From NCBI GenBank assembly GCA_005862225.1, contig SZXV01000010.1, forward strand, positions 124,001 to 188,000: a DNA stretch of 64,000 nucleotides. Reading direction: 5' to 3'. The DNA is from Chlorobium sp. GTDB lineage: Bacteria; Bacteroidota; Chlorobiia; Chlorobiales; Chlorobiaceae. Made by a program: the position numbers and the translations under genes. Below the pieces are notes generated by a model. That model searched no databases. It had not been told where the DNA came from and was given only the letters and a program-made list of their open reading frames with translations. Positions 11,051 through 31,227 of this stretch are shown here, in pieces (the stretch's first letter is position 1; each line of letters starts with the position of its first letter).

Positions 11051-14000
11051 TCATGATAATTGACGAGAGCGCTCTTTCTCTTTTTTCACGACCTCATCAA
11101 GAAGCTCCCCTGCTTCAACTATTGGAGAAGCAACCCCGGTAATGCGTTCCTGCAAATGTTGAAAGGTGATAAAAAGCACAGGCACAATAAAGATACCAAG
11201 CACCATACCAACAAACATTCCGCCAATAGCTGCCGCTCCAATAGAGTGATTTCCCTGAGCTGCTGGTCCCGAGACAAAAAGAAGAGGCAGAAGACCGGCA
11301 ATAAAGGCAAGCGATGTCATAAGAATAGGCCGGAGCCTTGCTTTTGCGCCTTCAAGAGCAGCCGCAGAGAGTGTACTTCCGGCAACCCTGCGCTGAAGTG
11401 CAAATTCGACAATAAGAATCGCATTTTTAGCCAACAGCCCGATGAGCATAATCACTGCAACCTGTACATAGATATTATTCTCAATCCCGGCAAGTTTGAT
11501 ACCAAGAAAAACGCCAAGCAGACCTGTCGGAATGGAGAGCATCACTGCAAGAGGGAGCAAATAGCTTTCGTAAAGTGCCGCAAGAAGAAAATAGACAAAC
11601 AACACCGAGAGCATAAAAATAAAGAGCAATCCACCTGTCGATTCAATCTCTTCACGGCTTTGACCCTTCCAGTCATAAGTGTAACCCGCTGGAAGGCTGC
11701 CCTGCGAAACCTCCTCAACGGCTTTAATTGCCTGACCTGTACTGAACCCGGGCTTAACAACGGCATTAATCGAAATGGCATTGAAAAGATTGAAATGGTC
11801 TACCGATTCTGTGCCATAAACCCTCTTCAGGGTGATCACCGACGAAACAGGCACCATATCTCCATTGGAGTTTTTGACAAAAATCCCGTTCAGTGACGAA
11901 GGCTCAGTGCGATCCAAAGGCTCTGCCTGCATCACCACACGATAATATTTACCAAAGCGGTTGAAATCCGAGGCTTGCATACTGCCATAATAAGCCTGCA
12001 AAACGGTCAGAAGCTCTTTGACGTTCACCCCAAGCTGGGCAGCCTTGATATTATCCACCTCAAGCTCATACTGCGGATAGGTGGCTTTGAAGTTGGTAAA
12101 GGCAAACCCTATTTCAGGGCGCTTCATCAATGCGTCAAGAAACCCCTTTGATATCCCGCTGAACTTGTCGATCGAGCCCCCACTGCGATCCTGCAGCACA
12201 AATTCAAGACCACCAACCGTACTGAAGCCTGGCACTGTGGGCTGCGCAAGGGCAAAGAATGAGCCATCCCTGTTGCTCAACTTCTTCGACATCGTACCAA
12301 GAATCTTCTTGATATCCCCTTCGGCACCCCGATCCTGATGATCTCGAAGTTGCACAAAAAGCAGACCGGAGGAGGGAGAAGAGCTTCTGGTAAGAATATT
12401 AATGCCAGCCACAGCAATCACCTTGCGCACAGATGGCATGGAGTGCAGCGTCGTAGTGGCGTTGTCGAGCGTCTTCTGGGTACGCTGCAACGAAGCGCCC
12501 GGCGGCATGGTGACGGAGACAATCACAAAGCCGTTATCTTCATCAGGAATAAATCCTGTCGGCATAATTTTGAAGAGCCAGAACGAAAGTGCAATCACCA
12601 CGCCAAGAGCGCCAAAAGTGATGCGCTTGTTGCGGATGAGAAAAACAAGAGCGCCAAGATATTTACGCTTCATCGCCTCAAAACTGACGTTAAAGCTGGT
12701 GAAAAAGCGCTGTCCGAAGCCGCCAAATCTTTTGAGATTGTTATGGTAGCCAGCACCACGATCAAAATCGTGCAGATTGGTCAAAAAGAGGGCGCAAAGC
12801 GCGGGACTCAGCGTCAGGGCGTTGACGGCTGAGATCAGAATGGCGATGGCCAGCGTAAAGGCAAACTGCCGATAAAAGACACCTGTCGAGCCTTCGAGAA
12901 AACCGACCGGTAAAAACACGGACGACATCACCAGCGTAATGGTGACAATGGCTTTCGTAATCTCGCGCATCGCCGAGACTGTGGCAACTTTGGCGGGGTA
13001 ACGCTTCTGTTCCATTTTGGCATGAACCGCCTCAACAACCACAATCGCATCATCCACCACAATCCCGATTGCCAGCACAAGACCGAAAAGAGTCAGGACG
13101 TTGATGGAAAAACCAAAAAGGTTCATAAAGAAAAAGGTGCCAATAATGGCGACCGGAACAGCAATAGCTGGTATAAGAGTAGAACGCAAATCCTGCAGGA
13201 AGATAAATACCACCAGAAAGACCAGTAAAAAAGCTTCAATGAGCGTATGAATCACCTGATTAATTGACTCATCAACCACCTTTTTGGAACTATAAGGAAT
13301 GGAATATGTGATGCCTGCCGGGAAGGAGACTGAGACCTTCTCAAGCGCCTTGCGAAGACCGATTTCAACCTTGTTGGCATTTGAACCCGGAGCCTGAAAA
13401 ACCGCAAGAACCACTGCAGGATCGCCATTGGCTTTGGTGTTGACCGTATAGCGGTATGCGCCAAACTCTACACGGGCAATATCGCCAAGTTTGAGCAGTG
13501 AACCGTCAGGATTTGAGCGAATCACCATATTTTCATACTCGCCGGGATAGCGATTTTTCCCCTTGTACTTCATCACATACTGCAAGGCCTGGCTGCTGTT
13601 CTCGCCAAATGATCCGGGAGCAGCCTCAAGATTCTGGCTCTGAATAGCCGCTGCAACCTCTTGCGGAGTCACCTTGTAGGCCGCCATCTGGTTCGGTCTC
13701 AGCCAGATACGCATGGAATAGTCAAGATTGCCATAGACCGAAACCTGTCCAACGCCCGGCACCCTCGACAAATCATCAACAATATTGATTTTGGCATAGT
13801 TCTGCAGGAATATTGTATCGTACTGCGGAATCTTGCTCGCCAGATTGATGAGCATAATCTGACTGTTCTGGCGCTTGACGGTCGTCACGCCAATCTGGTT
13901 CACCTCGGCGGGCAAGCGGCTGGTCGCCTGCGACACCCGGTTCTGCACATTTACCGCAGCCTGGTCGGGGTTGGTGCCCTGCTTGAAAAAGACAGTAATA

Positions 14001-14323: not shown

Positions 14324-15493
14324 TCATTGCCCAGTATTCGATGCCGCAGGAACGTTCCTGACTGGAGTAATAACAGCGCCATCCTGCAATTTATCGACTC
14401 CAACCACCACAATGGTATCGCCCTGCTGCAATCCTGAATTCACGAGATAATTATTACCACTTTTTGCAAGCACTGAAATAACCTGTTTTTTGACCTTGTT
14501 ACCCTTCTTGAGGAGAAAAACAAAAACCTTGTCCTGCAACTCAACTGTCGATGCCTGTGGAACCAGCAAAACATCATGATAGACGGATTCAATCTCCACC
14601 TGGCCACTATTTCCGGCACGTAACACGCCCTGATGATTCGGAAAGAGCGCCCTTAACCTGACGGAGCCGGTTGACTGATCAAACTGACCACTTATTGTCG
14701 CCAGACGGCCTTTTTCACTAAACCTGCTGCCATCAGCCATAATCAGTGAAACCGGAGCGACACGCTGAAGCATTAGCTGCATGGATGCTCCTGCATATTG
14801 CTGCCTGAAAAGGATATAATCCAGTTCACTCATACTGAAACTGGCACACACCTCGCTGACATCACTCAGCAGTGTCAGCCATTGACTCTGATTTTTACTG
14901 ACAAGACTTCCAAGGCGCAACGGTATTTTTCCAATATAGCCACTGACCGGAGCCTTGATGACGGTATAACCAAGACTAACACGCGCGGAGTTTGCGCCAG
15001 CGGTCCCCTGCTCAACAGACGCGAGAGTCGCATTATAATTAGCCTGAGCTATTTTAAGCTGGATATCAGAAACAACGTTGTTCTGCACCAGCGGAACAAG
15101 CTTGTCCACATCAAGTTTAGCTACAGCTAACCTCGCCTCTGCCGCATGTTGAGCCGCCAATGCACTGTGATACTGCTCTCGATACATCCTGTCGTCAATT
15201 TTAAAAAGCGGCTGCCCTGCCTTGACAAAAGAGCCCTCTTCAACATAAATTTTCTGGAGTGTTCCATCAACCTGTGGACGAATTTCCACATTGACTTTTC
15301 CCTCAAGCAGAGCCGAATACTCTGAAGTAACCCTGGCATCTGAGCGAGTAACTGTCATCACCGATAAAACTGGCTGCTCCTTTTTTTGAGCATTTTTACT
15401 TCCCGCTCCAACGCCACAACCAGTGAAAAGCAACAGGAACAACATTCCGATAACAACCGGAATCCTGAAAAAAATATGTTTCAAATTTTGCAT
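14324..15493 (-). CDS. RND efflux periplasmic adaptor lipoprotein (AcrA-like MFP)
   Basis: A 389-residue membrane-fusion protein, first gene of the efflux operon. The signal peptide ends in a lipobox (L-L-F-T-G-C, about residues 21-26). The lipoyl half-motifs (V-E-I-R-P-Q-V-D-G and V-I-K-A-P-V-S-G-Y-I-G) flank an alpha-hairpin at about 105-165, followed by the beta-barrel domain. It bridges the inner-membrane pump and the outer-membrane channel. The pump gene begins 57 bp downstream. No regulator (TetR/MarR) is adjacent; the next gene upstream belongs to a sigma factor pair. Confidence 0.93.
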   Translation of the reverse strand: MQNLKHIFFRIPVVIGMLFLLLFTGCGVGAGSKNAQKKEQPVLSVMTVTRSDARVTSEYSALLEGKVNVEIRPQVDGTLQKIYVEEGSFVKAGQPLFKIDDRMYREQYHSALAAQHAAEARLAVAKLDVDKLVPLVQNNVVSDIQLKIAQANYNATLASVEQGTAGANSARVSLGYTVIKAPVSGYIGKIPLRLGSLVSKNQSQWLTLLSDVSEVCASFSMSELDYILFRQQYAGASMQLMLQRVAPVSLIMADGSRFSEKGRLATISGQFDQSTGSVRLRALFPNHQGVLRAGNSGQVEIESVYHDVLLVPQASTVELQDKVFVFLLKKGNKVKKQVISVLAKSGNNYLVNSGLQQGDTIVVVGVDKLQDGAVITPVRNVPAASNTGQ

Positions 15494-17204: not shown

Positions 17205-18527
17205 TTATGCCTCCTGAATCCTGTGACCTGATGCTGCAAGAAGTGCACTTCCAACATCTTCCAGCAGAGTTATTGCGCCACGATAACCAACCGTGCAACG
17301 GTTCAGTACCACCCTCTCTACCAAAGGAAATGAAAGCTCTAAAAACGGCACCCCCATCTCAAAAGCCACCTCTTTTTCAAGAGCACTGCCAAGCACCAGC
17401 TCAGCGCTGCTGGAACGCAGCCGATCAGTAATCTCACCGTGATCTTCGCTGAAAAACAGCTCAGTACCATAACCTTCCACAAAACTTGTCACGTATGAAT
17501 AAAGCGTCTCTCTTGCATGATCAGGCGGATTATCCGTCATAATTAACAGACGAGGAATCATACCGAGAGTTCCGGCTAAAAACTCACTGAAGCCAGCCAC
17601 CTGGGCGCTCTCTCCAACAAGAGCAAATTCACGCTGAAACCCTGAGCGATAATAAGTATCAGCAAGAGCTGCAAGATGATTTGTTAAACGATTCTCTTCG
17701 TCCTGAATAACTCTTTCAGCTCTTCTGGTGTCGAGATGAAGCCGTTCAGTGACAGCTTGCAGCATTCTTCCACTTGCACGACCTACAGGAAGAGCATCGA
17801 GCACAAGAGCCGGGGTTCCATAACGCTCTTCCAGAAGCTGAGCTGGAGTTTCACCCCAAACAGAAACAACAAGGTTCAGAACCGCCTCCGGAACCTGCTG
17901 CCACGCAGCAAGGCCCTGTCCATTGCCAAAAAGAAGATTTGGTTTAAGACCGACAGTTTCCAGCAAACGACCAATCTCCTCCAGATTTCCAAACCAGAAT
18001 GGATCCTGTTGAGGAACAATTCCCCAGATATTGACGATACTGTCCGATACCGGTTCTGCGACCTTCCCAAGTTTTGGTAATTGTTCAATCAGTGCCTTTA
18101 TGGTCAACTGATATCCTTGATGAACATCTCCCCGAAAACCGGGAGTATTGGCATAGATCACCGGGAAATCCTGTTCACGACCTTCTTTTGTCATGGCAGG
18201 GATATCGTCACCCACCATTTCAGTCGAGCACCCGGTTACAATGACATAGAGTTCTCCCTGAATAATTTTGACCGTGTTTTTGAGCTGTTCACGTAAACGG
18301 GATCCTCCACCGAAAACGATGTGCTTTTGACTGATATTACTCGATGAAACCGATGGGCCACCGAAAGTATCGTTGCCCGCATTCAAACGGGTAATGCCCA
18401 GATGATGCTGCATCCCACATCCCGCAGTGCTGTGTATAACTGGAACCGCCCCTTCAATTGCGCCGATAACCTGAAGTGCACCATGCAGGGCACAGGAATT
18501 GCGTGATCCCTCAATATGATGGGCCAT
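17205..18527 (-). CDS. nitrogenase-like catalytic subunit, NifK-type (three cluster cysteines)
   Basis: A 440-residue member of the nitrogenase component 1 / DPOR-COR superfamily. The three cysteines that hold the interface cluster in NifK align well: Cys12 (S-C-A-L-H-G), Cys37 (A-G-C-G-M-Q) and Cys100 (T-G-C-S-T-E-M-V-G-D-D). The intervening H-I-V-F-G-G-G and N-T-P-G-F-R-G motifs are also typical. It starts one base after the stop of the D-like gene, so the two are probably made in equal amounts and form a complex. It is not BchZ or BchB by pattern, and green sulfur bacteria keep bch genes elsewhere. It lacks the N-terminal extension of true NifK. Last gene of the operon. The reaction is unknown; reductive cleavage of an organosulfur compound is inferred from operon context. 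Confidence 0.85.
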   Translation of the reverse strand: MAHHIEGSRNSCALHGALQVIGAIEGAVPVIHSTAGCGMQHHLGITRLNAGNDTFGGPSVSSSNISQKHIVFGGGSRLREQLKNTVKIIQGELYVIVTGCSTEMVGDDIPAMTKEGREQDFPVIYANTPGFRGDVHQGYQLTIKALIEQLPKLGKVAEPVSDSIVNIWGIVPQQDPFWFGNLEEIGRLLETVGLKPNLLFGNGQGLAAWQQVPEAVLNLVVSVWGETPAQLLEERYGTPALVLDALPVGRASGRMLQAVTERLHLDTRRAERVIQDEENRLTNHLAALADTYYRSGFQREFALVGESAQVAGFSEFLAGTLGMIPRLLIMTDNPPDHARETLYSYVTSFVEGYGTELFFSEDHGEITDRLRSSSAELVLGSALEKEVAFEMGVPFLELSFPLVERVVLNRCTVGYRGAITLLEDVGSALLAASGHRIQEA

Positions 18528-18528
18528 G

Positions 18529-19944
18529 CTACTTTACCTCCATTTTGATATGCCAATTGGCACTGCGTCGAAGCCAGGCATTCTGATAGACTGAAGGTGA
18601 ACGGGCAATTGCTGACGCAAAGGAGCGGTTGCGCAATGCAGCGGCAAATCGTCGTGCTGCAAAGATTAATCCGTTGTATCCAAGAATCGGACTCTCCTCA
18701 AGTGAAACGACCGGAATACCGAGGCGTCCAATCTGACTGAGGTGCGCTGCGTCGCCAAGATAAAGATCCGGAGATAATCGTTTTATAATATTCACCTCCT
18801 CAAATGGCTGACCATCTGCAACATGTATCGGCAACGCTGGATGCATCAGGGCAAGTTCATGCAGCCGGTGCTTATACCGGTGGTCAATGTAGCGGAACGT
18901 TATACCAATAACTTCGCCTCCCAGTTCCTCAACAAGATCCAGCACACTGAACAGTGTTGCTGCTGAAAGACCAAGATAAACCCGTACTCCCTTGAGAGTA
19001 AAATTCCCCAGTGATTGTTTGACTTTTTTACACTCCTGTTCATGAAACGTTTGAGCGGCTTCTTCAAGACCAAGTTCCTTGCCTGCGGCTGCAAGCCAGC
19101 GTCCTGTGGCGCCAAGACCAATCGGCCGTGGTGCTTCAACATAGGGCACTCCATACTCGTCATGCAGGCAGATTCCTATATAATTACTGCTGTCATCATC
19201 AAGTGAGATGGATAGCCTGGCTCTCTGAGCCTGACGGAATGTTTTTGCTGAGGCTCCATCTGGAAGAGTGTTCAACTCAAGACCAAACACAGACAGAAGA
19301 CGTTCAGCCTCCCGTTGATCATCGTTGTGCCCGGCAACCGAAAGCAAATTGATCCTGTTCTCGTGTTGATGTTCATCACTTCGTTTTCCGCCAAGATACT
19401 TAAGCAATGCGTGCAGCGCTATATCATAACCGGTCACAGCATGGTGAGAGGCAAAACCAGTAACATAGAGCGGAATAATATCCACGTCAAGCGCTTCGTG
19501 CAACTCGTCAACAACAGACTGGATATCATCATTATTAATCGCCACAACAGGAGTAGCCACAATAAAGATCAATTCCGGCTTATAACGCTTATATGCCTCA
19601 GTGACGGCTTTGCGCAGCTTCAGGTCAGCCCCCATAATGGTATCTCTTTCGTCGAGATTGGTTACAATCCAGCACCCGGCAGCAACGGTCAAATGATAAA
19701 AAAGACCGGCAGCAGCACATCCCCGTGAACCATGGATGACGATGACACTCTCCCGGATACTTGCCAGAAGCCGAAGAGCATGAAGAAGATCATCATGGCT
19801 GCTTTGTGAAAAAGTACGAGTTCGCTTGACGGGCTCTTTTGTGGAAAATTCTCTCTCAAGAGAGTCCACCGTTCCCTGCAACGCATTCAAGGTGTCAAGC
19901 CGCTTCTCTCGTGTAAGGGAGGATTTGGCTTTCAAAAGAGACAT
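18529..19944 (-). CDS. nitrogenase-like catalytic subunit, NifD-type, lacking FeMo-co ligands
   Basis: A 471-residue superfamily member that aligns with NifD through H-G-S-R-G-C (Cys76, equal to NifD Cys88) and N-N-D-D-I (139-141), then the segment with N-Y-I (254-256) and E-Y-G-V-P-Y, and finally G-Y-N-G-L-I-F-A-A-R near 422-431. Two of the three P-cluster cysteines are missing: the first position is in F-S-Q-S-S-H and the third is A-T-P near 130-132. Counting back from N-Y-I, the residue at the FeMo-co ligand Cys275 is Asp249, and the His442 position is Leu421. Only one cysteine is therefore available for an interface cluster, complementing three in the partner. The gene lies 31 bp after the H-like gene. 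The active-site content is unknown. Confidence 0.85.
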   Translation of the reverse strand: MSLLKAKSSLTREKRLDTLNALQGTVDSLEREFSTKEPVKRTRTFSQSSHDDLLHALRLLASIRESVIVIHGSRGCAAAGLFYHLTVAAGCWIVTNLDERDTIMGADLKLRKAVTEAYKRYKPELIFIVATPVVAINNDDIQSVVDELHEALDVDIIPLYVTGFASHHAVTGYDIALHALLKYLGGKRSDEHQHENRINLLSVAGHNDDQREAERLLSVFGLELNTLPDGASAKTFRQAQRARLSISLDDDSSNYIGICLHDEYGVPYVEAPRPIGLGATGRWLAAAGKELGLEEAAQTFHEQECKKVKQSLGNFTLKGVRVYLGLSAATLFSVLDLVEELGGEVIGITFRYIDHRYKHRLHELALMHPALPIHVADGQPFEEVNIIKRLSPDLYLGDAAHLSQIGRLGIPVVSLEESPILGYNGLIFAARRFAAALRNRSFASAIARSPSVYQNAWLRRSANWHIKMEVK

Positions 19945-19975: not shown

Positions 19976-20854
19976 TTAAATTGACGCCATATTATGAACA
20001 ACCCCGGACTCAACTTCAAATATTCTGTCGCCCCATGACCTTGCCCAGCGCTTTAATTCCGGAGCATTGAGAGGCTTTGGAATAACCGACTCCTCATTTT
20101 CATCAATATATCGAGCAAGATTGCGATAGACCTGAGCCTGCCCGGATTCAGGAAGCGCCTCAATGACCGTCTTGCCATAAAGTTCACTTTGTGCAACAGT
20201 GATGGATCTTGGCACATACCCCACGACGGTCGTCCCTGTTTGATCGGTAAAATCATCGATCAATGATTTGGCATAGGCCGCCTGAATACTGTTTGCTATT
20301 ACTCCTCCCAGTCGTGCGCCTCCCGATGGAGCGTATTTGTTTACGGCCTTGAAAAGATTGTTTGCTGCAAAAACCGCCATAAAATCCGATGACGTCACCA
20401 CAAAAACCCTGTCCGCAATACCATCCCGGATTGGAACCGCAAAACCCCCGCACACCACATCTCCCAAAACATCATAAAGCACAAAATCAGGCTTGTATTC
20501 TTCGAAGAGCTTCAATTCCTGCAAGAGTTCAACAGCCGCATTGATACCTCTTCCAGCACAACCAACTCCTGGAACAGGCCCCCCTGCTTCAATGCAAAGC
20601 ACACCACCAAAACCAACGGCGGAGACATCCTCGATCCTGACTTTACTCTGTTCACGCAGTGTGTCGAGTACGGTAGGCAGGTCATTTCCTCCACGCAGAA
20701 TCGTCGTTGAATCGCTTTTAGGATCGCATCCTATCTGAATAACCCTGTAACCTGCCTCGGCAAGCGCAGCACTGATATTGGAAGTCGTCGTGGATTTACC
20801 GATTCCCCCTTTGCCGTAAATCGCAACATGCTTGCCTTGTTTTTTTTCACTCAT
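19976..20854 (-). CDS. nitrogenase-like iron protein (NifH/BchX-type ATP-dependent reductase)
   Basis: A 292-residue homodimeric Fe protein that would pass electrons, driven by ATP, to the D/K-like complex. The P-loop G-K-G-G-I-G-K-S-T is at 14-22. The two [4Fe-4S] ligands are Cys99 (G-V-G-C-A-G-R-G) and Cys135 (D-V-V-C-G-G-F). Switch I (G-C-D-P-K-S-D-S-T) and the Arg102 that is ADP-ribosylated in NifH are present. The reading frame is open 45 codons further upstream, but the ATG at 20854 is preceded by AAGGAGT at ideal spacing and starts at the conserved family N-terminus. It is closer to NifH-like group IV and BchX proteins than to true NifH by eye; this needs a tree. Confidence 0.93.
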
Positions 20855-20885
20855 CTCAATACTCCTTTTTCTTGATTCTATATTG

Positions 20886-21686
20886 TCAGGCAATCCCCGC
20901 TTGACGCAGACCCGGCCAGGCTGATCCGCCGAGAGTGAACCCACCGCCCGAGATATCCAGCCGTGCACCTGAAATAAAAGATGCCTCATCAGAAAGAAGC
21001 CAGATGATGGGTTTGGCTATCTCTTCAACAAAGCCAGGACGACCTATCGGAATGGTTGAGGAGATCTCTTCAAGGATTTGCTGATCGGCCGCATAGACAG
21101 CAGTCATCTCTGTAAGGGTAAAACCGGGTCGCACAGACACTGCTCGTATTCCCTCTGAAGCTACTTCCTTCGCCAGGCCAACAGTAAAAGCATCAACCGC
21201 ACCTTTGGTGGCGGCATAAAAAGAGGCGCCCGGACGCCCTCCTATGGTTGAAGCCATCGACGAGATATTGATGATGACCCCACCCTGCCCCCCATGAACC
21301 GTAGACATCCGACGCACGGCCTCCTTTGTTGAAAGAATCAGGCCGACGACATTGATTTGAAACAGATGCTGCAGCCGGGCAGCATCAGCAGCATCAACAC
21401 GCGTGGGACCAGTACCCATACCAGCGCTGTTGACAAGCGCCGTAACCGTTCCAAGTTTTTCATCAACCTCCCTGTAGAGCCGCTCAATATCCTCTGGCCT
21501 TGCAATGTCTGCATATACCGCTATTGCTCGAACACCTCTCTCTTTCAATTTTTCAACAAGACGATTGGCCTCCTGTTCTCTGGTACGATAGTTGACAGCT
21601 ATCGAGTATCCTTTTTCCGCAGCGAGTCTGGCTGTTGCCGCACCAATCCCGCTGGCCCCTCCTGTAATGACCAATACTTTCGACAT
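20886..21686 (-). CDS. short-chain dehydrogenase/reductase (SDR)
   Basis: A 266-residue NAD(P)-dependent oxidoreductase of the classical SDR type. It shows T-G-G-A-S-G-I-G (about 8-15), N-S-A-G (about 88-91, usually N-N-A-G), the catalytic Ser (I-N-I-S-S-M, about 143) and Y-A-A-T-K (about 158-162), with P-G-F following. FabG-like, including R-P-G-F-T-L-T-E-M. The start chosen is the ATG at 21686, where [10 protein letters not shown] begins. It sits between a radical SAM gene and the Fe-protein gene, 31 bp before the latter, so it is part of the nitrogenase-like operon and may act on the same substrate or its carbonyl/alcohol product. Substrate unknown. Confidence 0.9.
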
Positions 21687-21724
21687 ATACTCTTTTCGTA
21701 TAAACTCCCTTTGAAAATGCCACA

Positions 21725-21911: not shown

Positions 21912-23105
21912 TCATGCCACCAGGCCCTTGAAAACCGGCAGCATTTCATCTTCAATCCGATAAATATCATGGATTATCGTTATTGGGGCTGCATAGCAAT
22001 CATAGATCTCCTCGTAGGTAAAACCGTACTTTCTGTAGATAGCCGCTATTTTCTTGTAAAGATCAAAATGCCAGGCTGGTTCTGGTGAACGATGTCCCTC
22101 AAAAGCAGAGCCCGGATTCGGATTCCAGCTTGTCGCAAAACAGATAACACCCTTGGATGCCAGATATTCAATACCTTCAAGTGTTGACTCCTTCGGTTCA
22201 AGGCCTGCCACGATGTTTGAACGCACCTTGCCCCGGCCAAAGACCTCCACTTCATACTCCAAAGCCTTGACCCAATGCTCCCAGCCACCACACTGCAGCT
22301 CCTTTCCGGGGCAGATCGCCTTAAACATATTTCTGTCCCAGACCTCAATATTGGTCGCAATGGTGCGATACCCGGCTTCCTTGTACTTGTCAATGATATT
22401 CAGGTCATGAGGAGCACCGACACAGGCCGTGCCGTTAAAATCATCCAGTCCGGTATGTTCCTTGATGGCATCTGCCACATCCAGGTAATACTCCACTTCA
22501 CGACGCTCAGCCACAAAACCGCCTGTTATGGTGAGATGACGCGCCCCATCCCGGTATGCCGCACCAACCGTTTCTCCGATCTGCTTTGGATATTTCCAGC
22601 CGATACCCTCTGCTTCGCCATAGGTATCTTTCGTCGCATTGATGTTGCAGAATTTGCAGTCCTGGCCTTTATCTTTCAGGGCACATTCGTTGCTGTAAGG
22701 AATAAGCAGCACTCCATCCTGAACATAGAGCGCCAGATTGGCCATGCTTGTTCCATCCGAAGTTTTCAGTTTGTAATAGTTTGGCCGCTCAAGAAATTCA
22801 ACCGGAAATATGATTTCTCCATGATGGGCCAGATAGTAGGTCCCCTTTTCATAGATAAATGAGTATGAAGAGCGGCGATCCCACTTGACGGTATAGACCA
22901 GACCGTGTGGAGAGCGGTAACCTGCCGGAAACTTGATTCCAACATGAGTCTCATGGTCTCCCTCGAAAAGACAGTGAACTTCCTCCTGAAAGCGTCCACC
23001 AAGGTCAAGGTGTTTAAAAATATGAGGATCAAAGTTGATGCCTTCAACCCCTGTTAATATTTTTAATTCCAGTTCCCGATACAATGTTTCTTTAAGATTA
23101 CTCAT
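21912..23105 (-). CDS. radical SAM protein with CX8CX2C cluster motif (paralogue 1)
   Basis: A 397-residue protein whose only cysteine cluster fitting a radical SAM site is Cys141-Cys150-Cys153 (C-A-L-K-D-K-G-Q-D-C-K-F-C), a CX8CX2C spacing in place of the canonical CX3CX2C. A glycine-rich T-I-T-G-G follows near residue 198, at the place of the SAM-binding GGE motif. The region N-I-E-V-W-D-R-N-M-F (about 249-258) is shared with the second radical SAM protein of this operon. The N-terminal 130 residues are a separate beta-rich domain. It could assemble or modify the cofactor of the nitrogenase-like enzyme, or act on the substrate. It is not NifB by motif. Position: between the ABC ATPase and SDR genes. 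Confidence 0.82.
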   Translation of the reverse strand: MSNLKETLYRELELKILTGVEGINFDPHIFKHLDLGGRFQEEVHCLFEGDHETHVGIKFPAGYRSPHGLVYTVKWDRRSSYSFIYEKGTYYLAHHGEIIFPVEFLERPNYYKLKTSDGTSMANLALYVQDGVLLIPYSNECALKDKGQDCKFCNINATKDTYGEAEGIGWKYPKQIGETVGAAYRDGARHLTITGGFVAERREVEYYLDVADAIKEHTGLDDFNGTACVGAPHDLNIIDKYKEAGYRTIATNIEVWDRNMFKAICPGKELQCGGWEHWVKALEYEVEVFGRGKVRSNIVAGLEPKESTLEGIEYLASKGVICFATSWNPNPGSAFEGHRSPEPAWHFDLYKKIAAIYRKYGFTYEEIYDCYAAPITIIHDIYRIEDEMLPVFKGLVA

Positions 23106-23158: not shown

Positions 23159-23935
23159 TTATATCGTATAGGTGAAATGAGGCTCGGTGTGCAGCATAAA
23201 CTCCTCAAGCACTTTTTCTTTCATTTCAGCAAACTCAACACTTGCCCGATCCCGTGGCCGTGCAAGTGGAACAGGAATAATTTTCTGTAATTTTCCTGGC
23301 CGTGCAGACATCACAACAATTTTATCCGAAAGATAAAGGGCCTCTTCAACATCATGAGTGACCATGATCATGGTTATATTTTCTTTCTTCCATATCCGCT
23401 CAAGCTCCTTGTGCATATACATTCTTGTTAAAGCATCAAGCGCACCAAGCGGCTCATCCAAAAGCAATATTTCAGGTTGATTGACAAGAGACCTTGCTAT
23501 TGCAGCTCGTTGTGACATTCCGCCGGACAATTGATATGGATAACTTTTTTCAAAGCCTTTCAATCCTACCAGTTCAATATGGTTGTTGACTATTTCCTTT
23601 TTCTCTGTGTCACTTTTACCGACAATGCCAAGCCCTATATTTTTTTCAACCGTCAGCCATGGAAAAAGGCGATGATCCTGAAACACAATTCCCCTGTCAA
23701 GACTTGGTCCGTTAAGTTTTCGCCCATCAAGAAGAATATCACCTTCATAGTCAGATTCTAACCCGACAATAAGTCGCAAAAGTGTTGTTTTTCCGCAACC
23801 GCTCAAACCAATAATGCTTATAAACTCTCCTGCCTTGACTGATAAGTTGATATTATCGAGAACATGAATTTCATTATTATTAACACGAAATTTTTTACTC
23901 ACATTCGTTACTGAAAGTGTTCCTGTACTTTTCAT
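23159..23935 (-). CDS. ABC transporter ATPase, nitrate/sulfonate/taurine type
   Basis: A 258-residue ATP-binding subunit of the SsuB/TauB/NrtD class, energising uptake of an oxyanion-like solute. It shows Walker A (G-L-S-G-C-G-K-T-T, about 43-51), the Q-loop (V-F-Q-D-H-R-L-F), signature L-S-G-G-M-S-Q-R, Walker B ([11 protein letters not shown]) and H-loop (V-T-H-D-V-E-E-A). It ends 53 bp before the radical SAM gene and begins 4 bp after the second permease, and partners the two permeases and the binding protein of this operon. The family imports sulfonates, sulfate esters, taurine, nitrate or thiamine precursors. The sulfur-linked leader favours a sulfur compound. Confidence 0.92.
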
Positions 23936-23939
23936 TGAT

Positions 23940-24737
23940 TTATCTTGATTGTTTCAATGTCAGTCTCCAGAAAGAGAAAAACATTTCCATTTTTTGCATA
24001 AAAAAATTCATTGTAAATCCAACTAATGCGATTGCAATAATACAGACAACAACCAGATCCATTCTGGAATATTCTCTGCACGCCCACATCATTTCACCAA
24101 TACCGCCTCCAGAGGTCATAAATATTTCAGCAGCAACAACCAGCATCCACGAAATACTCAAACTGAGTCGTAGTCCGGTCAGCGTTGAAGGAAAACTTGA
24201 CGGCAGAATAATTTTAAAAAAACGTTGAACTCTGTTGAACTTGAATACCTTTCCAACTTCGACATAATCGTTTCTGACATTTTTTACCCCTTCGAACGTA
24301 TTCAGAACAACAGGATAACAGGCTCCAATTGCGATAAAAAGCACACGGGACATTTCACCAAGACTGACCAGAACCAATAACGGAGCCCATGCGGGCAAGG
24401 GCACCTGCCGGATTGCATTAAAAATCGGAGTTATCAATTTTTCCAGAAACCTCGACATTCCGAGAGTTATTCCTATAACAAACCCGACTGTCGAACCAAG
24501 AAGAAAACCTTTCAATACCCTGATGACACTCATACCAAGATTATCAAGAAAACTTCCATCATTCAGGACTTCATGAAAGCCATTCACGACATCTCCAGGA
24601 GAGGGAAAAAAATCTTTTGATAGAATATTGAGCCTTGAACAGATCAGCCAGATAACAAAAATCGTTCCCGGAAGAAGAGTGCCTTCAAGCACTTTAATGG
24701 GCAAATATTTATTCCCCCTCACAGACAAAAAACTCAT
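23940..24737 (-). CDS. ABC transporter permease (SsuC-like) 2
   Basis: Inner-membrane permease of about 265 residues with six hydrophobic segments and the BPD_transp_1 EAA-type loop (the E-V-G-K-V-F-K-F-N region followed by I-L-P-S-S-F-P near residue 170). It is homologous to the first permease gene, so the transporter is a heterodimer. The start at 24737 (M-S-F-L-S-V-R-G) is preferred over an upstream ATG that would overlap the preceding gene by 53 bp. Two different permeases are less usual in this class, where a homodimer of one SsuC is normal. Confidence 0.88.
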
Positions 24738-24741
24738 GATT

Positions 24742-25524
24742 TTATTTTTTTGAGAGTGGACGATGCCAGCTAATAAGAGAAACTTCGAGAGCATTAAGTG
24801 TCAGAAACATCAGATATCCGATAGATCCAACGACTGCAATCCCCACAAAAACAATATCCATTTGAAACAACTGTCGCCCCCAGACAATAAGGTATCCGAC
24901 TCCCTCACCTGCCGCAACAAGTTCAGCTCCGACAACAAGCATCCACGACATGCCAAGTGCCAGTTTGATTCCTGTAAAAAGAGAAGGCAAGGCCGCAGGC
25001 AAAAGCACTTTATGAAGCAGCTTGGCTGAACTGAATTCAAAAGCACGGGCGACCTCAAGGTATGATCTGGGAACCCCGTGGATTCCTTCAAAGGTGTTGA
25101 TCAACATCGGGAAAAAAGCCCCAAATGCTATAAAAACAACTTTGAAGGTCTCTCCTATTCCAAACCAGAGCATCAACAGAGGAATCCAGCCGAAAAGCGG
25201 CACCTGACTCAAGGCGCTGAGCAACGGCGCTATAATACGTTCCGACCTTGGTGAAAGAGCCATCACCGTGCCAAAAATAAAACCAAGGGTGGCACCGAGA
25301 ACAAATCCAGTCAACACCCGATACATGCTGATCCGAAGATGCTCCAGCAATTCTCCTGTACTGATCAAGTCAAAAAAAGTAATCAGTACCTTGTGCGGAG
25401 CCACAACAATCTGTGATGGGAAAATTTCAAGCTTGCAGATTATTTCCAGGCCAATAACGAGCAGAACAGGAACGATAAACCCGATAAGAATTGTCTTGAC
25501 CTGTGTTTCTCCCTTAGTGTTCAT
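24742..25524 (-). CDS. ABC transporter permease (SsuC-like) 1
   Basis: A 260-residue inner-membrane permease with six hydrophobic segments and the family loop (E-V-A-R-A-F-E-F then V-L-L-P-A-A-L-P). The start at 25524 (M-N-T-K-G-E-T) overlaps the MFS gene by 11 bp, showing tight coupling. An upstream in-frame ATG would extend it deep into the MFS gene and is unlikely. Together with permease 2 it forms the membrane channel for the SsuABC-like importer. Confidence 0.88.
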   Translation of the reverse strand: MNTKGETQVKTILIGFIVPVLLVIGLEIICKLEIFPSQIVVAPHKVLITFFDLISTGELLEHLRISMYRVLTGFVLGATLGFIFGTVMALSPRSERIIAPLLSALSQVPLFGWIPLLMLWFGIGETFKVVFIAFGAFFPMLINTFEGIHGVPRSYLEVARAFEFSSAKLLHKVLLPAALPSLFTGIKLALGMSWMLVVGAELVAAGEGVGYLIVWGRQLFQMDIVFVGIAVVGSIGYLMFLTLNALEVSLISWHRPLSKK

Positions 25525-26737
25525 TGCTATACTCCTTGTTGAATGGCTGAACCAATAACGCGTCATCCACAACAGCGGCAGGGGCATTGTGACGCAGATA
25601 AAGTCTGACCGAGAGTGCCAGATAAAGAGGTATAAAAATCAGAAACACAGACCTTGCTCCGAAGAGCTCTCCTGCAAATCCTCCAACGACCGGTCCAATA
25701 ATTGAACCGGCTATAGTAAACATGGCAAACATACCCGCAGTCCTTCCTTTATCAACATTGGCGTATGCGATACGAGTCACATTAACCAGATTGAACATGC
25801 CAAGTCCGATTCCGACAAATACAGTGCCGATAACAAGGAAGAGTGGATGCCATAAACTGGAGAGAAATATCAGACCTGTAACGACAAAGGCAATACTTGT
25901 CAGATAAAAGCGACGTTCCCCGAGCCTGTCAAGCAGACGCCAGAGGGTAAACAGTGTTGCAATAAAAACCAGACCCTCTAATGACACAAACAATGACGCG
26001 ACCTGTGCCGAGATATGAAAAACACGAATCGCAAGAACAATGATAAAAGCATTGAAACATGAGAAGGTAGCCAGCGCCAACGCTTCTGCACTGGATGCCT
26101 CAAGGATATTGTGATCATGAAAAAGCTCCTTGACATGCCTCCATCTTTCAACAAGCGTACTTGCTCCGGAAGCTTTGGCATTAGGGAAAATGGCAAGCGC
26201 ACCAACGATCAGAAGAAGGACAGATACACTGACAGCATAAAAAGTGGCATTAAACCCCCAGTATTTACTCATGAACGCTCCGGACAATGGGCCAAGAAAT
26301 ACCATCCCGAATGAATGTGATCCCCTCTGCCAACCAGCCTTGTCACTGCCAATTGTCTTCACAAACTCCAGAAAAACGCTGCTCATCGGAATAAACCTGA
26401 ATGCAGAAAAAAAACCGACGATCGCAACGAAGTAGCAAAGAGTCTGTGATGAGTTCGCAAAGGGAAAAAGGAGATACAGAAGTGCCGTTGCCACAGCTCC
26501 AAAAATAAACACTTTCCTTGGGCCAACATGATCAACCAGAAAACCAATCGGCAACACCGTCAAAAGCAGACCAATTCCCTGCGCACCGCCGATCAATCCA
26601 ATCTGGGAGCTTGTCGCTCCAAGCTGTACGGCATAAAGTGTTATTGCAATCTGTGCAATCCCCATCCCCATTCCACCAAGAACAGAGAGAAACATAAACT
26701 GCACAAGCAGCTTGTTTTGACTTATTGACTCTGTCAT
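25514..26737 (-). CDS. major facilitator superfamily transporter
   Basis: A 407-residue MFS protein with about twelve hydrophobic segments and the loop-2 signature G-F-L-V-D-H-V-G-P-R-K (about 61-71), which resembles the canonical G-x-x-x-D-R-x-G-R-R/K. It starts 3 bp before the end of the FMN-barrel gene region and overlaps the next permease. Its place inside the operon suggests it moves a product out (for example the desulfurised residue) or a second substrate in. Specificity cannot be read from sequence. Confidence 0.88.
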   Translation of the reverse strand: MTESISQNKLLVQFMFLSVLGGMGMGIAQIAITLYAVQLGATSSQIGLIGGAQGIGLLLTVLPIGFLVDHVGPRKVFIFGAVATALLYLLFPFANSSQTLCYFVAIVGFFSAFRFIPMSSVFLEFVKTIGSDKAGWQRGSHSFGMVFLGPLSGAFMSKYWGFNATFYAVSVSVLLLIVGALAIFPNAKASGASTLVERWRHVKELFHDHNILEASSAEALALATFSCFNAFIIVLAIRVFHISAQVASLFVSLEGLVFIATLFTLWRLLDRLGERRFYLTSIAFVVTGLIFLSSLWHPLFLVIGTVFVGIGLGMFNLVNVTRIAYANVDKGRTAGMFAMFTIAGSIIGPVVGGFAGELFGARSVFLIFIPLYLALSVRLYLRHNAPAAVVDDALLVQPFNKEYSNEH

Positions 26738-26739
26738 GA

Positions 26740-27204
26740 CTATTGCCTCAATAAATCCAGATGGCTGTGAAACAAGCCTCTCTCTTCCTTTGCAAGAGAG
26801 CTTCGGTAGGCAGGAGATTCGTTTCGAATCTCTTCAGGCGTAATGACCCAGACACCCGCAATATCAGCCTCGGGGCCTCTTCTTTCCCGAGCCCGTTCAA
26901 GCATCTGCCTGAAAATGGCACCAGTAATCAAGTATTTGTAGGGATAACCCTTTATTTGATAACTGATAAGGCCCTTTGTAATATTAATGGCAACTTTTTT
27001 GTCGAACCAGATACTCCTGACCAGATTTTTATTACTGATCGAACTCTCGACCCCTTCCGCAAAAACAATTGTTTCATCATCAAGAGTGGTCAACGAGCCC
27101 TTGAAAACAACGTGAGGCACGCCATCACCATCAATGGTTGCGACCACTTTAACACTCCCCGTATCCTTAAGCAGACCAAGCAGCTCTTCCGGTAGTTTAC
27201 TCAT
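26740..27204 (-). CDS. pyridoxamine 5'-phosphate oxidase-like FMN-binding split-barrel protein
   Basis: A 154-residue flavin-type split-barrel protein. The N-terminal half has the pattern V-A-T-I-D-G-D-G-V-P-H-V-V (about 20-32), typical of PNPOx-like domains, followed by strand V-A-I-N-I-T-K and Y-P-Y-K-Y-L-I-T-G-A. The PLP-synthesis residues of true PdxH are not apparent. Such proteins often bind FMN, F420 or heme and reduce small organics. It has only one methionine after the start and no cysteine. It lies 17 bp after the second radical SAM gene. Role in the pathway unknown; a flavin-dependent step on the imported compound is plausible. Confidence 0.8.
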   Translation of the reverse strand: MSKLPEELLGLLKDTGSVKVVATIDGDGVPHVVFKGSLTTLDDETIVFAEGVESSISNKNLVRSIWFDKKVAINITKGLISYQIKGYPYKYLITGAIFRQMLERARERRGPEADIAGVWVITPEEIRNESPAYRSSLAKEERGLFHSHLDLLRQ

Positions 27205-29615: not shown

Positions 29616-30935
29616 TTAAAAGGTGTACTGAAGCTGAGCAAGAAACTCATTGTTGGCAACCTGGTTGCTCTCCTCAGTTATGATGTTGTAATTGATCTGC
29701 AGCTTGGTGGTCTGGGCAAAAAACCAGTTAAGTCCGATGGTGGTGATATCTTTCCGGTTGCCATTGACGCTCGTATCCGGATCCCAGCGATCAAACCTCA
29801 CGAAAGGCTGAAAAGTGGTTGGATACCAGTCATCATAGCGATCCTGGGCTTTATAACCACTGACGAATTGTTCACCCTGGTTGTAAAAAACGGTAACCGT
29901 ATGCCCACTCTTTTTGATCGTCCCATCCTCTCCTCTTGCATACTCAATGGTGAAGCCAACAGGAGTATTGACATAAGAGAGATCAAAACCGCTCCTGTTT
30001 TTTTCCACATTACCCAGGGAGCCACTCTTGCCAGAGTAATAAGAGGCTCCAAACGATAAGCCGCGAAAGACTGACGAATAGTCAACAGGAGCATTGAGCA
30101 CAATCCTGCCCGAAATATCTTTATGTTTATTGTCGTCGGAAAGCGTGGAATAGCCATACGCGTCAGAACCTCTGCCGTTAAGAATGCCTACTGAGTATTC
30201 GATGGCAGGAACGCGATAGCGAAATCCGGGGTCAAATTGTGGAAATAAATCTCCTTTAATGACAATTCCGAGATCACGCGCATCAAGATCAATCCCTGTG
30301 CCAGCTCTTGCAGATTGTGCAAGTTTGATCGTCGGTTTTTTATCTTCTCCGGCAAGAGCTTCAAGACCAAAAGGTTTTTTCTGCTTTCCAGCAGTGATAC
30401 TTAAAAGCGGATCTTCAGGATTCAGAGAAGGCAGAATAAAGGCCGTGATATAGGCATCAAGAGGACTTACCCTGAAATCCGTGGTGCCATCTGCATTTGC
30501 TCCACTTGGAGATGCAAGACTGAACAGATAGTTGACATTACGTCCCTGTTCGTAATCTCGCTTGAGACTTCCCTGAAAATTGAGCACAAGCGCATTCAGG
30601 TCAAAACCATTCCTGGTCGCATTGTGCTGTGTCGAGTATCTGAGTTGGGCGATGCCTGTAAAAATAAGAGAACGCTGCGTGCGCGCTGTATTGTTTTCAA
30701 GCGTCCTCTGCCACAACTCCTGTAATGTTGCAACCTCGCCCCTGACGCCCTCGAGTTCCTCTCTGGTAACCGGCGTCTCTGCCTTTACCGGTTCATCGAC
30801 CGCAACAACTTCAGCATTACCCGGACGAGATGCAGCGACCTTCGTATCAACTGTACTCTTGTCAGCAGCTTGCAGATTGGCATTACCAATCAAAAAGCTT
30901 CCGATAAGAAATATTCCAATTTTAATTTTACTCAT
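29616..30935 (-). CDS. outer-membrane porin (phosphate-selective porin O/P-like), free of Cys and internal Met
   Basis: A 439-residue outer-membrane beta-barrel protein, first structural gene of the operon. The signal peptide is about 1-23 (ending L-Q-A-A-D). A short coiled-coil segment follows (E-E-L-E-G-V-R-G-E-V-A-T-L-Q-E-L-W, about 58-74), then alternating beta strands and a C-terminal Phe (L-A-Q-L-Q-Y-T-F), the normal barrel insertion signal. From the ATG at 30935 there is no cysteine and no further methionine. An ATG 13 codons upstream lies close to the terminator hairpin and is less likely. It would let the substrate through the outer membrane. Confidence 0.88.
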   Translation of the reverse strand: MSKIKIGIFLIGSFLIGNANLQAADKSTVDTKVAASRPGNAEVVAVDEPVKAETPVTREELEGVRGEVATLQELWQRTLENNTARTQRSLIFTGIAQLRYSTQHNATRNGFDLNALVLNFQGSLKRDYEQGRNVNYLFSLASPSGANADGTTDFRVSPLDAYITAFILPSLNPEDPLLSITAGKQKKPFGLEALAGEDKKPTIKLAQSARAGTGIDLDARDLGIVIKGDLFPQFDPGFRYRVPAIEYSVGILNGRGSDAYGYSTLSDDNKHKDISGRIVLNAPVDYSSVFRGLSFGASYYSGKSGSLGNVEKNRSGFDLSYVNTPVGFTIEYARGEDGTIKKSGHTVTVFYNQGEQFVSGYKAQDRYDDWYPTTFQPFVRFDRWDPDTSVNGNRKDITTIGLNWFFAQTTKLQINYNIITEESNQVANNEFLAQLQYTF

Positions 30936-30957: not shown

Positions 30958-30996
30958 AAAAAAAAAGCCGACACTTTGACATTAAGAATCGGCTTT
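30958..30996 (-). terminator. intrinsic terminator between leader ORF and first operon gene (attenuator)
   Basis: On the minus strand an 8-bp stem (AAAGCCGA with TCGGCTTT; 30989-30996 and 30964-30971) with a 17-nt loop is followed by a run of nine T (the stem's last three included) at 30966-30958. It lies 28 nt after the leader stop codon and 22 nt before the porin start, so transcription must pass it to enter the operon. This is the layout of a transcription attenuator. A further AU hairpin (31004-31023, 8-bp stem) lies just upstream. Confidence 0.85.
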
Positions 30997-31024
30997 CGTA
31001 TAAACTTTTTTCTATAAAAAAGTA

Positions 31025-31108
31025 TTATTCGATAGCAATAAATTTAATGCTCAGATATTGTTGTAACCAACAACAACAGCAAAAAAATAATACAGGAGTT
31101 ATTTTCAT
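31025..31108 (-). CDS. 27-residue leader peptide with four consecutive cysteines
   Basis: A 28-codon ORF including TAA, starting at the ATG at 31108 and reading M-K-I-T-P-V-L-F-F, then Cys-Cys-Cys-Cys (TGC TGT TGT TGT, 31081-31070), then W-L-Q-Q-Y-L-S-I-K-F, ending in A-I-E. It lies about 85 nt downstream of the predicted transcription start and directly before an intrinsic terminator. This is the arrangement of ribosome-mediated attenuation, with stalling at Cys codons when charged tRNA-Cys is scarce. The Cys codons overlap a possible hairpin (31058-31063 with 31068-31073 or 31071-31076). There is no clear Shine-Dalgarno site. The ORF is read directly; the regulation is inferred. Confidence 0.82.
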   Translation of the reverse strand: MKITPVLFFCCCCWLQQYLSIKFIAIE

Positions 31109-31179
31109 AACATTGATTGAATTAAAATATTGTTCTTTATTTCTTGTCATCAAGATCAGCAATAAATAAAAACTTTCAA

Positions 31180-31197
31180 ATCCCGTTTAAACGGGAT
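31180..31197. promoter_or_regulatory. 18-bp perfect palindrome at the predicted transcription start
   Basis: ATCCCGTTTAAACGGGAT is a perfect inverted repeat located 3 bp downstream of the -10 box, covering the predicted start site on the minus strand. This is a typical place for a repressor operator. It would also form a hairpin at the 5' end of the mRNA. The regulator is unknown. Confidence 0.7.
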
Positions 31198-31199
31198 AT

Positions 31200-31227
31200 T
31201 GTATACCATAAACGAGTTATTTTTCAA
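31200..31227 (-). promoter_or_regulatory. sigma-70-type promoter of the nitrogenase-like operon
   Basis: On the minus strand TTGAAA (31227-31222), a 16-bp spacer, then TATACA (31205-31200) followed by AT. The nonamer TATGGTATA occurs twice, at 31210-31202 (overlapping the -10) and 31244-31236 (just upstream of the -35), 34 bp apart, and may be an activator or repressor site. The 330 bp further upstream to the divergent DUF4293 gene hold nothing I can name. Confidence 0.65.

Follow-up and report, generated by a model that had tools for sequence, protein, structure and literature searches.

The trp, his and leu attenuators of enterobacteria combine a short leader ORF carrying a run of regulatory codons with mutually exclusive antiterminator and terminator structures, placed ahead of operons for amino-acid supply. 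For cysteine, predictions in Actinobacteria place leaders with Cys runs, but no terminators, ahead of cys operons (PMC1262725), and mycobacterial poly-Cys ORFs are cysteine-responsive attenuators that are described as acting by translation attenuation (Canestrari et al, 2020, cited in PMC9094748 and PMC13236596). In these actinobacterial leaders the Cys run lies near the stop codon, the transcripts are leaderless and there is no conserved terminator. Under limitation, photoferrotrophic Chlorobi carry out assimilatory sulfate reduction; their gene cassette includes sulfate transporter genes, and the main text of that report does not mention cysteine (PMC5498476). None of the literature searched describes cysteine attenuation in Chlorobi.

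Here we analysed 64 kb of DNA from a Chlorobium sp. (hereafter the window; all window features given below lie on the minus strand) that contains a poly-Cys leader ORF, an intrinsic terminator and an antiterminator ahead of a porin. Classical attenuation for cysteine with an intrinsic terminator would be new, as would the lineage and the presence of the device in many copies before many operons. In contrast to the trp, his and leu attenuators, cysteine is the amino acid that would be sensed, the terminator loop is captured besides the 5′ arm, the antiterminator wraps around a conserved hairpin, there are many copies per genome, some of them in tandem, and the targets include uptake and scavenging operons, a nitrogenase-like enzyme among them. 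The locus shares with the actinobacterial leaders short ORFs with Cys runs before sulfur-metabolism operons, but here 14 sense codons separate the Cys run from the stop codon of the window leader (few in one subgroup), and both an intrinsic terminator and an antiterminator are present. The mycobacterial parallel drawn by an earlier note on this DNA therefore holds for the Cys-run ORFs before sulfur operons and not for the mechanism: in the published descriptions the mycobacterial ORFs attenuate translation and have no terminator, which makes them an analogy.

The leader ORF (MKITPVLFFCCCCWLQQYLSIKFIAIE*, 27 aa, 31025-31108) starts with the ATG at 31108 and ends with the TAA at 31027-31025. Its putative sensor, four consecutive Cys codons (TGC TGT TGT TGT), lies at 31070-31081, and clustered Cys is kept in related leaders. 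When the 624-nt intergenic region was dinucleotide-shuffled 20,000 times, CCCC arose within an ATG ORF in 0.02% of cases (P ~0.0002), CCC in 0.5% and CC in 13%, and the window contains no other ATG ORF of up to 60 aa with CCCC on either strand. These shuffles bear out the earlier note, which had called four adjacent Cys codons by chance very unlikely and whose coordinates for leader, Cys codons and terminator are correct to the base. In a closely related sister genome the leader, read from the start equivalent to 31108, is MKFNHVSFFCCCWLQQYLSIKFIAIE*, with one Cys codon lost in-frame. An in-frame ATG further upstream, at 31150, is not conserved, a stop codon standing there in the sister genome, and was for this reason rejected as leader start. 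The window leader has no clear Shine-Dalgarno sequence; one is present in some related leaders (GGAGGAAAATGCTATG, AAGGAGATGGTATG).

The intrinsic terminator (AAAGCCGAUUCUUAAUGUCAAAGUGUCGGCUUUUUUUUU, 30958-30996) starts 28 nt past the leader stop and, as noted before, has an 8-bp stem (AAAGCCGA/TCGGCTTT, 30996-30989/30971-30964) and a T-run to 30958, still ahead of the first gene. The stem is in fact longer, since a U-G pair, a U.U mismatch, a C-G and two U-A pairs continue into the loop. A fixed-parameter terminator scan missed the window terminator, probably because its loop exceeds 8 nt, and RNA folding finds it. In most of the first 21 units the distance from the last Cys codon to the terminator is 73-79 nt, with a maximum of 90. 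Leader stop and terminator are separated by a post-stop hairpin (ACUUUUUU-AUAG-AAAAAAGU, 31004-31023), also found by folding. The terminator helix is conserved with compensatory changes, and covariation of terminator and post-stop hairpin counted together gave 91.6% paired and 17 double-change cells, with none of 500 shuffles scoring as high.

Although the earlier note could not resolve a clear antiterminator, one exists. Its 5′ strand, region 2 (UGAGCAUUAA....AUUGCU, 31034-31053), was identified from alignment pair counts and from folding of the RNA not covered by a ribosome halted at the Cys codons, ending before the terminator 3′ arm; its 3′ strand, identified by folding and duplex tests, is the terminator 5′ arm plus loop (30977-30996). 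The stalled partial transcript of the window folds at -17 kcal/mol, with 31053-31034 paired to 30996-30977 and the post-stop hairpin enclosed. The antiterminator is the minimum free energy structure of this transcript in 41 of 45 representatives, compared with 29.3 ± 2.3 when region 2 is swapped between units, whereas after ribosome release the terminator folds in all 45. Pairing of region 2 with the cognate terminator is more stable than swapped pairing by 2.3 kcal/mol (Wilcoxon p 1.8e-6 over 44 representatives), and region 2 can be seen by eye to track the loop (UCUGACA/UGUCAGA, CUGAUA/UAUCAG, ACAUAAAA/UUUUAUGU, CUGUUGU/ACAACAG). Covariation of the antiterminator in the alignment is marginal, its score being reached in 33 of 500 shuffles, in part because the units slide in register. 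Shuffle tests of individual antiterminators are weak for single units (Fisher p 0.006), and the cognate/non-cognate and folding tests were therefore used. As the window's own duplex is unexceptional compared with shuffles (p 0.19), support for the antiterminator comes from the family and not from this duplex.

The leader, its Cys run, the terminator, the antiterminator, their conservation and their gene context are read directly from the sequence, and they comprise the features of an attenuator, namely clustered regulatory codons, an intrinsic terminator and an antiterminator that arises just downstream of the Cys codons. Very probably, charged tRNA-Cys is sensed here through ribosome-mediated transcription attenuation of the classical kind, which governs the porin/SsuA-like/methylthio-alkane-reductase-like operon. 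With ample Cys-tRNA, the ribosome would cross the Cys codons and region 2 and depart at the stop codon, after which the GCCGA/UCGGC hairpin would form and halt transcription ahead of the porin. With scarce Cys-tRNA, the ribosome would stall on the Cys run and leave region 2 free to pair, around the post-stop hairpin, with the terminator 5′ arm and loop once these are made, so that read-through would result. We infer that the leader is translated, that ribosomes stall on it, that read-through occurs and that the operon responds to cysteine; the steps that lead from low Cys-tRNA through stalling to read-through follow established attenuation mechanisms.

The operon begins with a porin (Porin_O_P, 29616-30935, ATG at 30935) and an ABC substrate-binding protein of the SsuA family, aliphatic sulfonate type (TIGR01728, 28545-29582). 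These are followed by a radical SAM protein (variant_rSAM NF045502, 27222-28475), a small PNPOx-like flavoprotein whose match lies below the Pfam cut-off (26740-27204), an MFS transporter (25514-26737), two ABC permeases and an ABC ATPase (23159-25587; permease 1 and the ATPase by Pfam, permease 2 by sequence reading and conserved order), a second radical SAM protein (variant_rSAM NF045502, 21912-23105) and an SDR-family oxidoreductase (20886-21689). The last three genes encode an NflH/MarH-like Fe protein (19976-20857; MarH of the methylthio-alkane reductase 9FMG at E 1.9e-119, next 3e-83), an NflD/MarD-like subunit (18529-19944; 9FMG and 9D9U are its only PDB relatives at E ≤1e-20) and an NflK/MarK-like subunit (17205-18527; 266 bits to 9D9U/9FMG, next 100). 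For all three, and for NflH by a wide margin, the closest solved relative is thus the methylthio-alkane reductase of Rhodospirillum rubrum (PDB 9FMG, PMC12552129), and nflHDK are predicted to encode a methylthio-alkane-reductase-like enzyme with C-S reductase activity. Compared with the marBHDK operon of R. rubrum (PMC12552129), a porin, an SsuA-like transporter, two radical SAM genes and the Cys attenuator precede these genes here, and a NifB-type MarB was not recognised among the operon genes scanned. Related genomes keep the gene order of the operon, and a single transcript would reach nflK.

To avoid circularity, loci were picked by protein homology alone and leaders were searched for afterwards. 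All 20 upstream regions of porin/SsuA-like operons contain an ATG ORF with at least two Cys in five codons (4.9 expected from shuffles), and 16 contain one with at least three (0.31 expected); this count excludes a distant locus of another genus (L063), left out because no Cys leader was seen there, and three loci are truncated at contig or locus ends. For DUF4395-metY operons the corresponding numbers are 54 of 73 (10.6 expected) and 45 of 73 (0.58 expected), the metY operons without a Cys leader in some Chlorobiaceae belonging mostly to a second genus, and for sulfate ABC transporter operons, identified by the sulfate-binding protein, 27 of 28 (4.6 expected) and 20 of 28 (0.18 expected). Absence of the Cys run from orthologous operons, which the earlier note had named as evidence against attenuation, was looked for as well: protein homology identified six orthologues of the mar/nfl operon, and a Cys-rich leader precedes every one of them (CCC, CC, CCC, CFIRCR, RCRC and CCWQRC); in the last three the RNA sequence similarity is small and Cys is kept. 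Runs of at least three identical residues among 84 distinct leaders are made of Cys in 54 cases and of any other residue in at most three. The attenuation reading of the earlier note gains from this conservation at paralogous porin/SsuA-like and sulfur-assimilation operons, and from the antiterminator.

A covariance model built from 18 leaders finds, at E ≤3e-4, about 80 matches, by our count, in 26 genomes of the genus. A genome has several of them, and they are often grouped on one contig. An in-frame Cys-Cys ORF closes before the terminator in 76 of 81 extracted units, most of the others having CRC, CYC or similar. Both covariance models contain Cys columns, so that their matches are partly circular, which the protein-homology tests are not, and the model counts are therefore supportive rather than independent. 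The genes behind the matches encode porins, NflH, radical SAM proteins, a BadF/BcrAD-like ATPase, ABC ATPases, an RND adaptor, an SDR protein and a probable arylsulfotransferase, the last few being named from sequence by eye. Weak matches proved to be further classes of leaders: a second before DUF4395-metY, mostly with three to seven Cys codons, a third before another porin, and one before the sulfate transporter. Matches of the R2 model outside the family, viewed as a table, were not accepted, and many of them cover only the terminator part of the model. In Rfam the window leader matches only far below thresholds, and six representative loci gave no leader match.

The window's own genome has at least three Cys leaders, before the mar-like operon, metY and the sulfate transporter. 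The metY leader (MKMSEKNFSMCCCCCRWQHDTDTGISGRRS*, G000:C2:198050-197917) precedes a DUF4395 gene and an O-acetylhomoserine sulfhydrylase gene (TIGR01326), beyond which lie CysK (TIGR01139) and a CysE-like gene, and the other (MRDKKYTPIFSKSICCCSRKTCLDRTIFCLCP*, G000:C12:66553-66664) precedes a sulfate-binding protein (TIGR00971) and a permease; a reversed control pattern had no match in this genome. The leader-bearing operons serve cysteine supply, through O-acetylhomoserine sulfhydrylase with CysK/CysE nearby, a sulfate transporter, and SsuA-like and methylthio-alkane-reductase-like genes. Sulfate transporter genes also belong to the assimilatory sulfate reduction cassette of photoferrotrophic Chlorobi (PMC5498476), and one sulfate transporter here has a Cys leader. 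The tie to sulfur acquisition proposed in the earlier note is stronger than it had claimed, as the same device stands before metY and the sulfate transporter of the same genome.

Since one device guards cysteine-making, sulfate-uptake and sulfur-scavenging operons, a shortage of cysteine probably turns on sulfur acquisition directly in these cells. In several sequence classes, the device would define a Chlorobiaceae regulon of DUF4395-metY, the sulfate transporter, porins and organosulfur gene islands. We favour, with some reserve, a genome-wide cysteine-starvation regulon that needs no dedicated cysteine-sensing protein: its cis-acting poly-Cys attenuators, for which metY and the sulfate transporter are probably the ancestral sites, would have been copied and diversified before the operons of the organosulfur islands, bringing the nitrogenase-like methylthio-alkane reductase under the control of Cys-tRNA charging. 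In relatives, these islands hold up to nine leader copies per genome, some in tandem. If true, this is a cysteine attenuator family in which a poly-Cys leader goes together with an antiterminator and an intrinsic terminator, from a lineage whose cysteine regulation we did not find described, and an example of one cis-switch copied over a gene island to give a regulon without a regulator protein. It makes the inducing signal of a nitrogenase-like C-S reductase directly testable, and the shared switch predicts a part in sulfur scavenging for genes of unknown role (radical SAM proteins, porins, DUF4395 and ATPases).

Control could instead be exerted mainly at the promoter. A candidate sigma-70-type promoter (TTGAAA-N18-TACAAT, 31198-31227, 10/12 in a consensus scan), about 90 nt upstream of the leader ATG, lies within a conserved, promoter-proximal upstream element (GGTATACAATATCCCGTTTAAACGGGATTT, 31179-31208) with an 18-bp perfect palindrome at 31197-31180, which is probably the operator of a regulator and/or a 5′ RNA hairpin. 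Elements of this type recur within 150 nt upstream of 26 of 81 related leaders, where shuffles predict 0.15, and a related palindrome, ATACC-N8-GGTAT, stands ahead of most sulfate-transporter leaders. A transcription factor bound to these palindromes as the main sulfur control, with the leader as a minor fine-tuner, is nevertheless rather unlikely: it leaves Cys runs, terminators and antiterminators unexplained, we saw no such element upstream of the metY leaders read, and the two layers are compatible. A mycobacteria-like control, in which the hairpin is incidental and cysteine affects how the downstream gene is translated, or acts by way of Rho, has precedents in the actinobacterial Cys leaders without terminators (PMC1262725) and in those of M. 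smegmatis described as translational (PMC13236596), and some Chlorobiaceae porins have, directly upstream, a second Cys ORF without an obvious terminator. We consider it improbable, since in the units examined an intrinsic terminator with a T-run follows the leader and is their best conserved part, and since the antiterminator targets this terminator.

Two further explanations do without attenuation. Short conserved ORFs may be functional proteins, and the leader could encode a small protein rich in Cys, such as a metal- or thiol-binding peptide, and lie before the operon by coincidence. No tool result speaks for this, and we give it very little credence, as outside the Cys run the peptides are wholly divergent between classes, whereas the run and its distance to the terminator persist across them. 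Least credible of all, with almost no chance of being correct, is that TGY codons (TGTTG repeats) came to stand in a row by chance, in an AT-rich intergenic region next to an ordinary terminator. TGTTGTTGT is indeed a simple repeat able to slip, and the sister genome has one copy fewer; yet the local P is ~0.0002, Cys is conserved at many independent loci with differing flanks and with both Cys codons in use, and the homology-based tests have already refuted chance. Ribosome-mediated transcription attenuation thus remains the preferred reading.

Some further observations concern the genes and leaders around these units. An RND-type adaptor, a lipoprotein (GCGVGAG), is encoded downstream of nflK (14324-15493); no Cys leader was seen between 15493 and 15720, where we looked for one, and homologues in relatives carry their own (e.g. 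G089:C9). An ecological link through dsrA (photoferrotroph-like genomes) was considered, and as the window genome has dsrA and the island genomes are mixed, no claim is made. In the metY loci read, a DUF4395 gene (L153:7381-7863 and orthologues), probably sulfur-related, lies between the Cys leader and metY. The second variant_rSAM gene of the window (21912-23105) is present in three copies in both L047 and L048. Contigs with organosulfur islands (e.g. G022:C4, G036:C40, G097:C9, G009:C18 and G104:C189) carry several operons, each with its own Cys attenuator, including nflH-like, radical SAM and BadF/BcrAD-like ATPase genes. At five loci (L058, L059, L060, L061 and L064) the second Cys-rich ORF (e.g. 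...LRCCACPCLMYCTQHY*), which is possibly a translational attenuator, lies 12-64 nt before the porin start, with no obvious terminator. At L053 (G090:C47, about 11780-12094), two complete leader and terminator units (MKYYLRSNICCCLQEHYYMKSYGER and MSKKKSYISCCCCQRCYEEIKNFIQN) stand in tandem before one porin.
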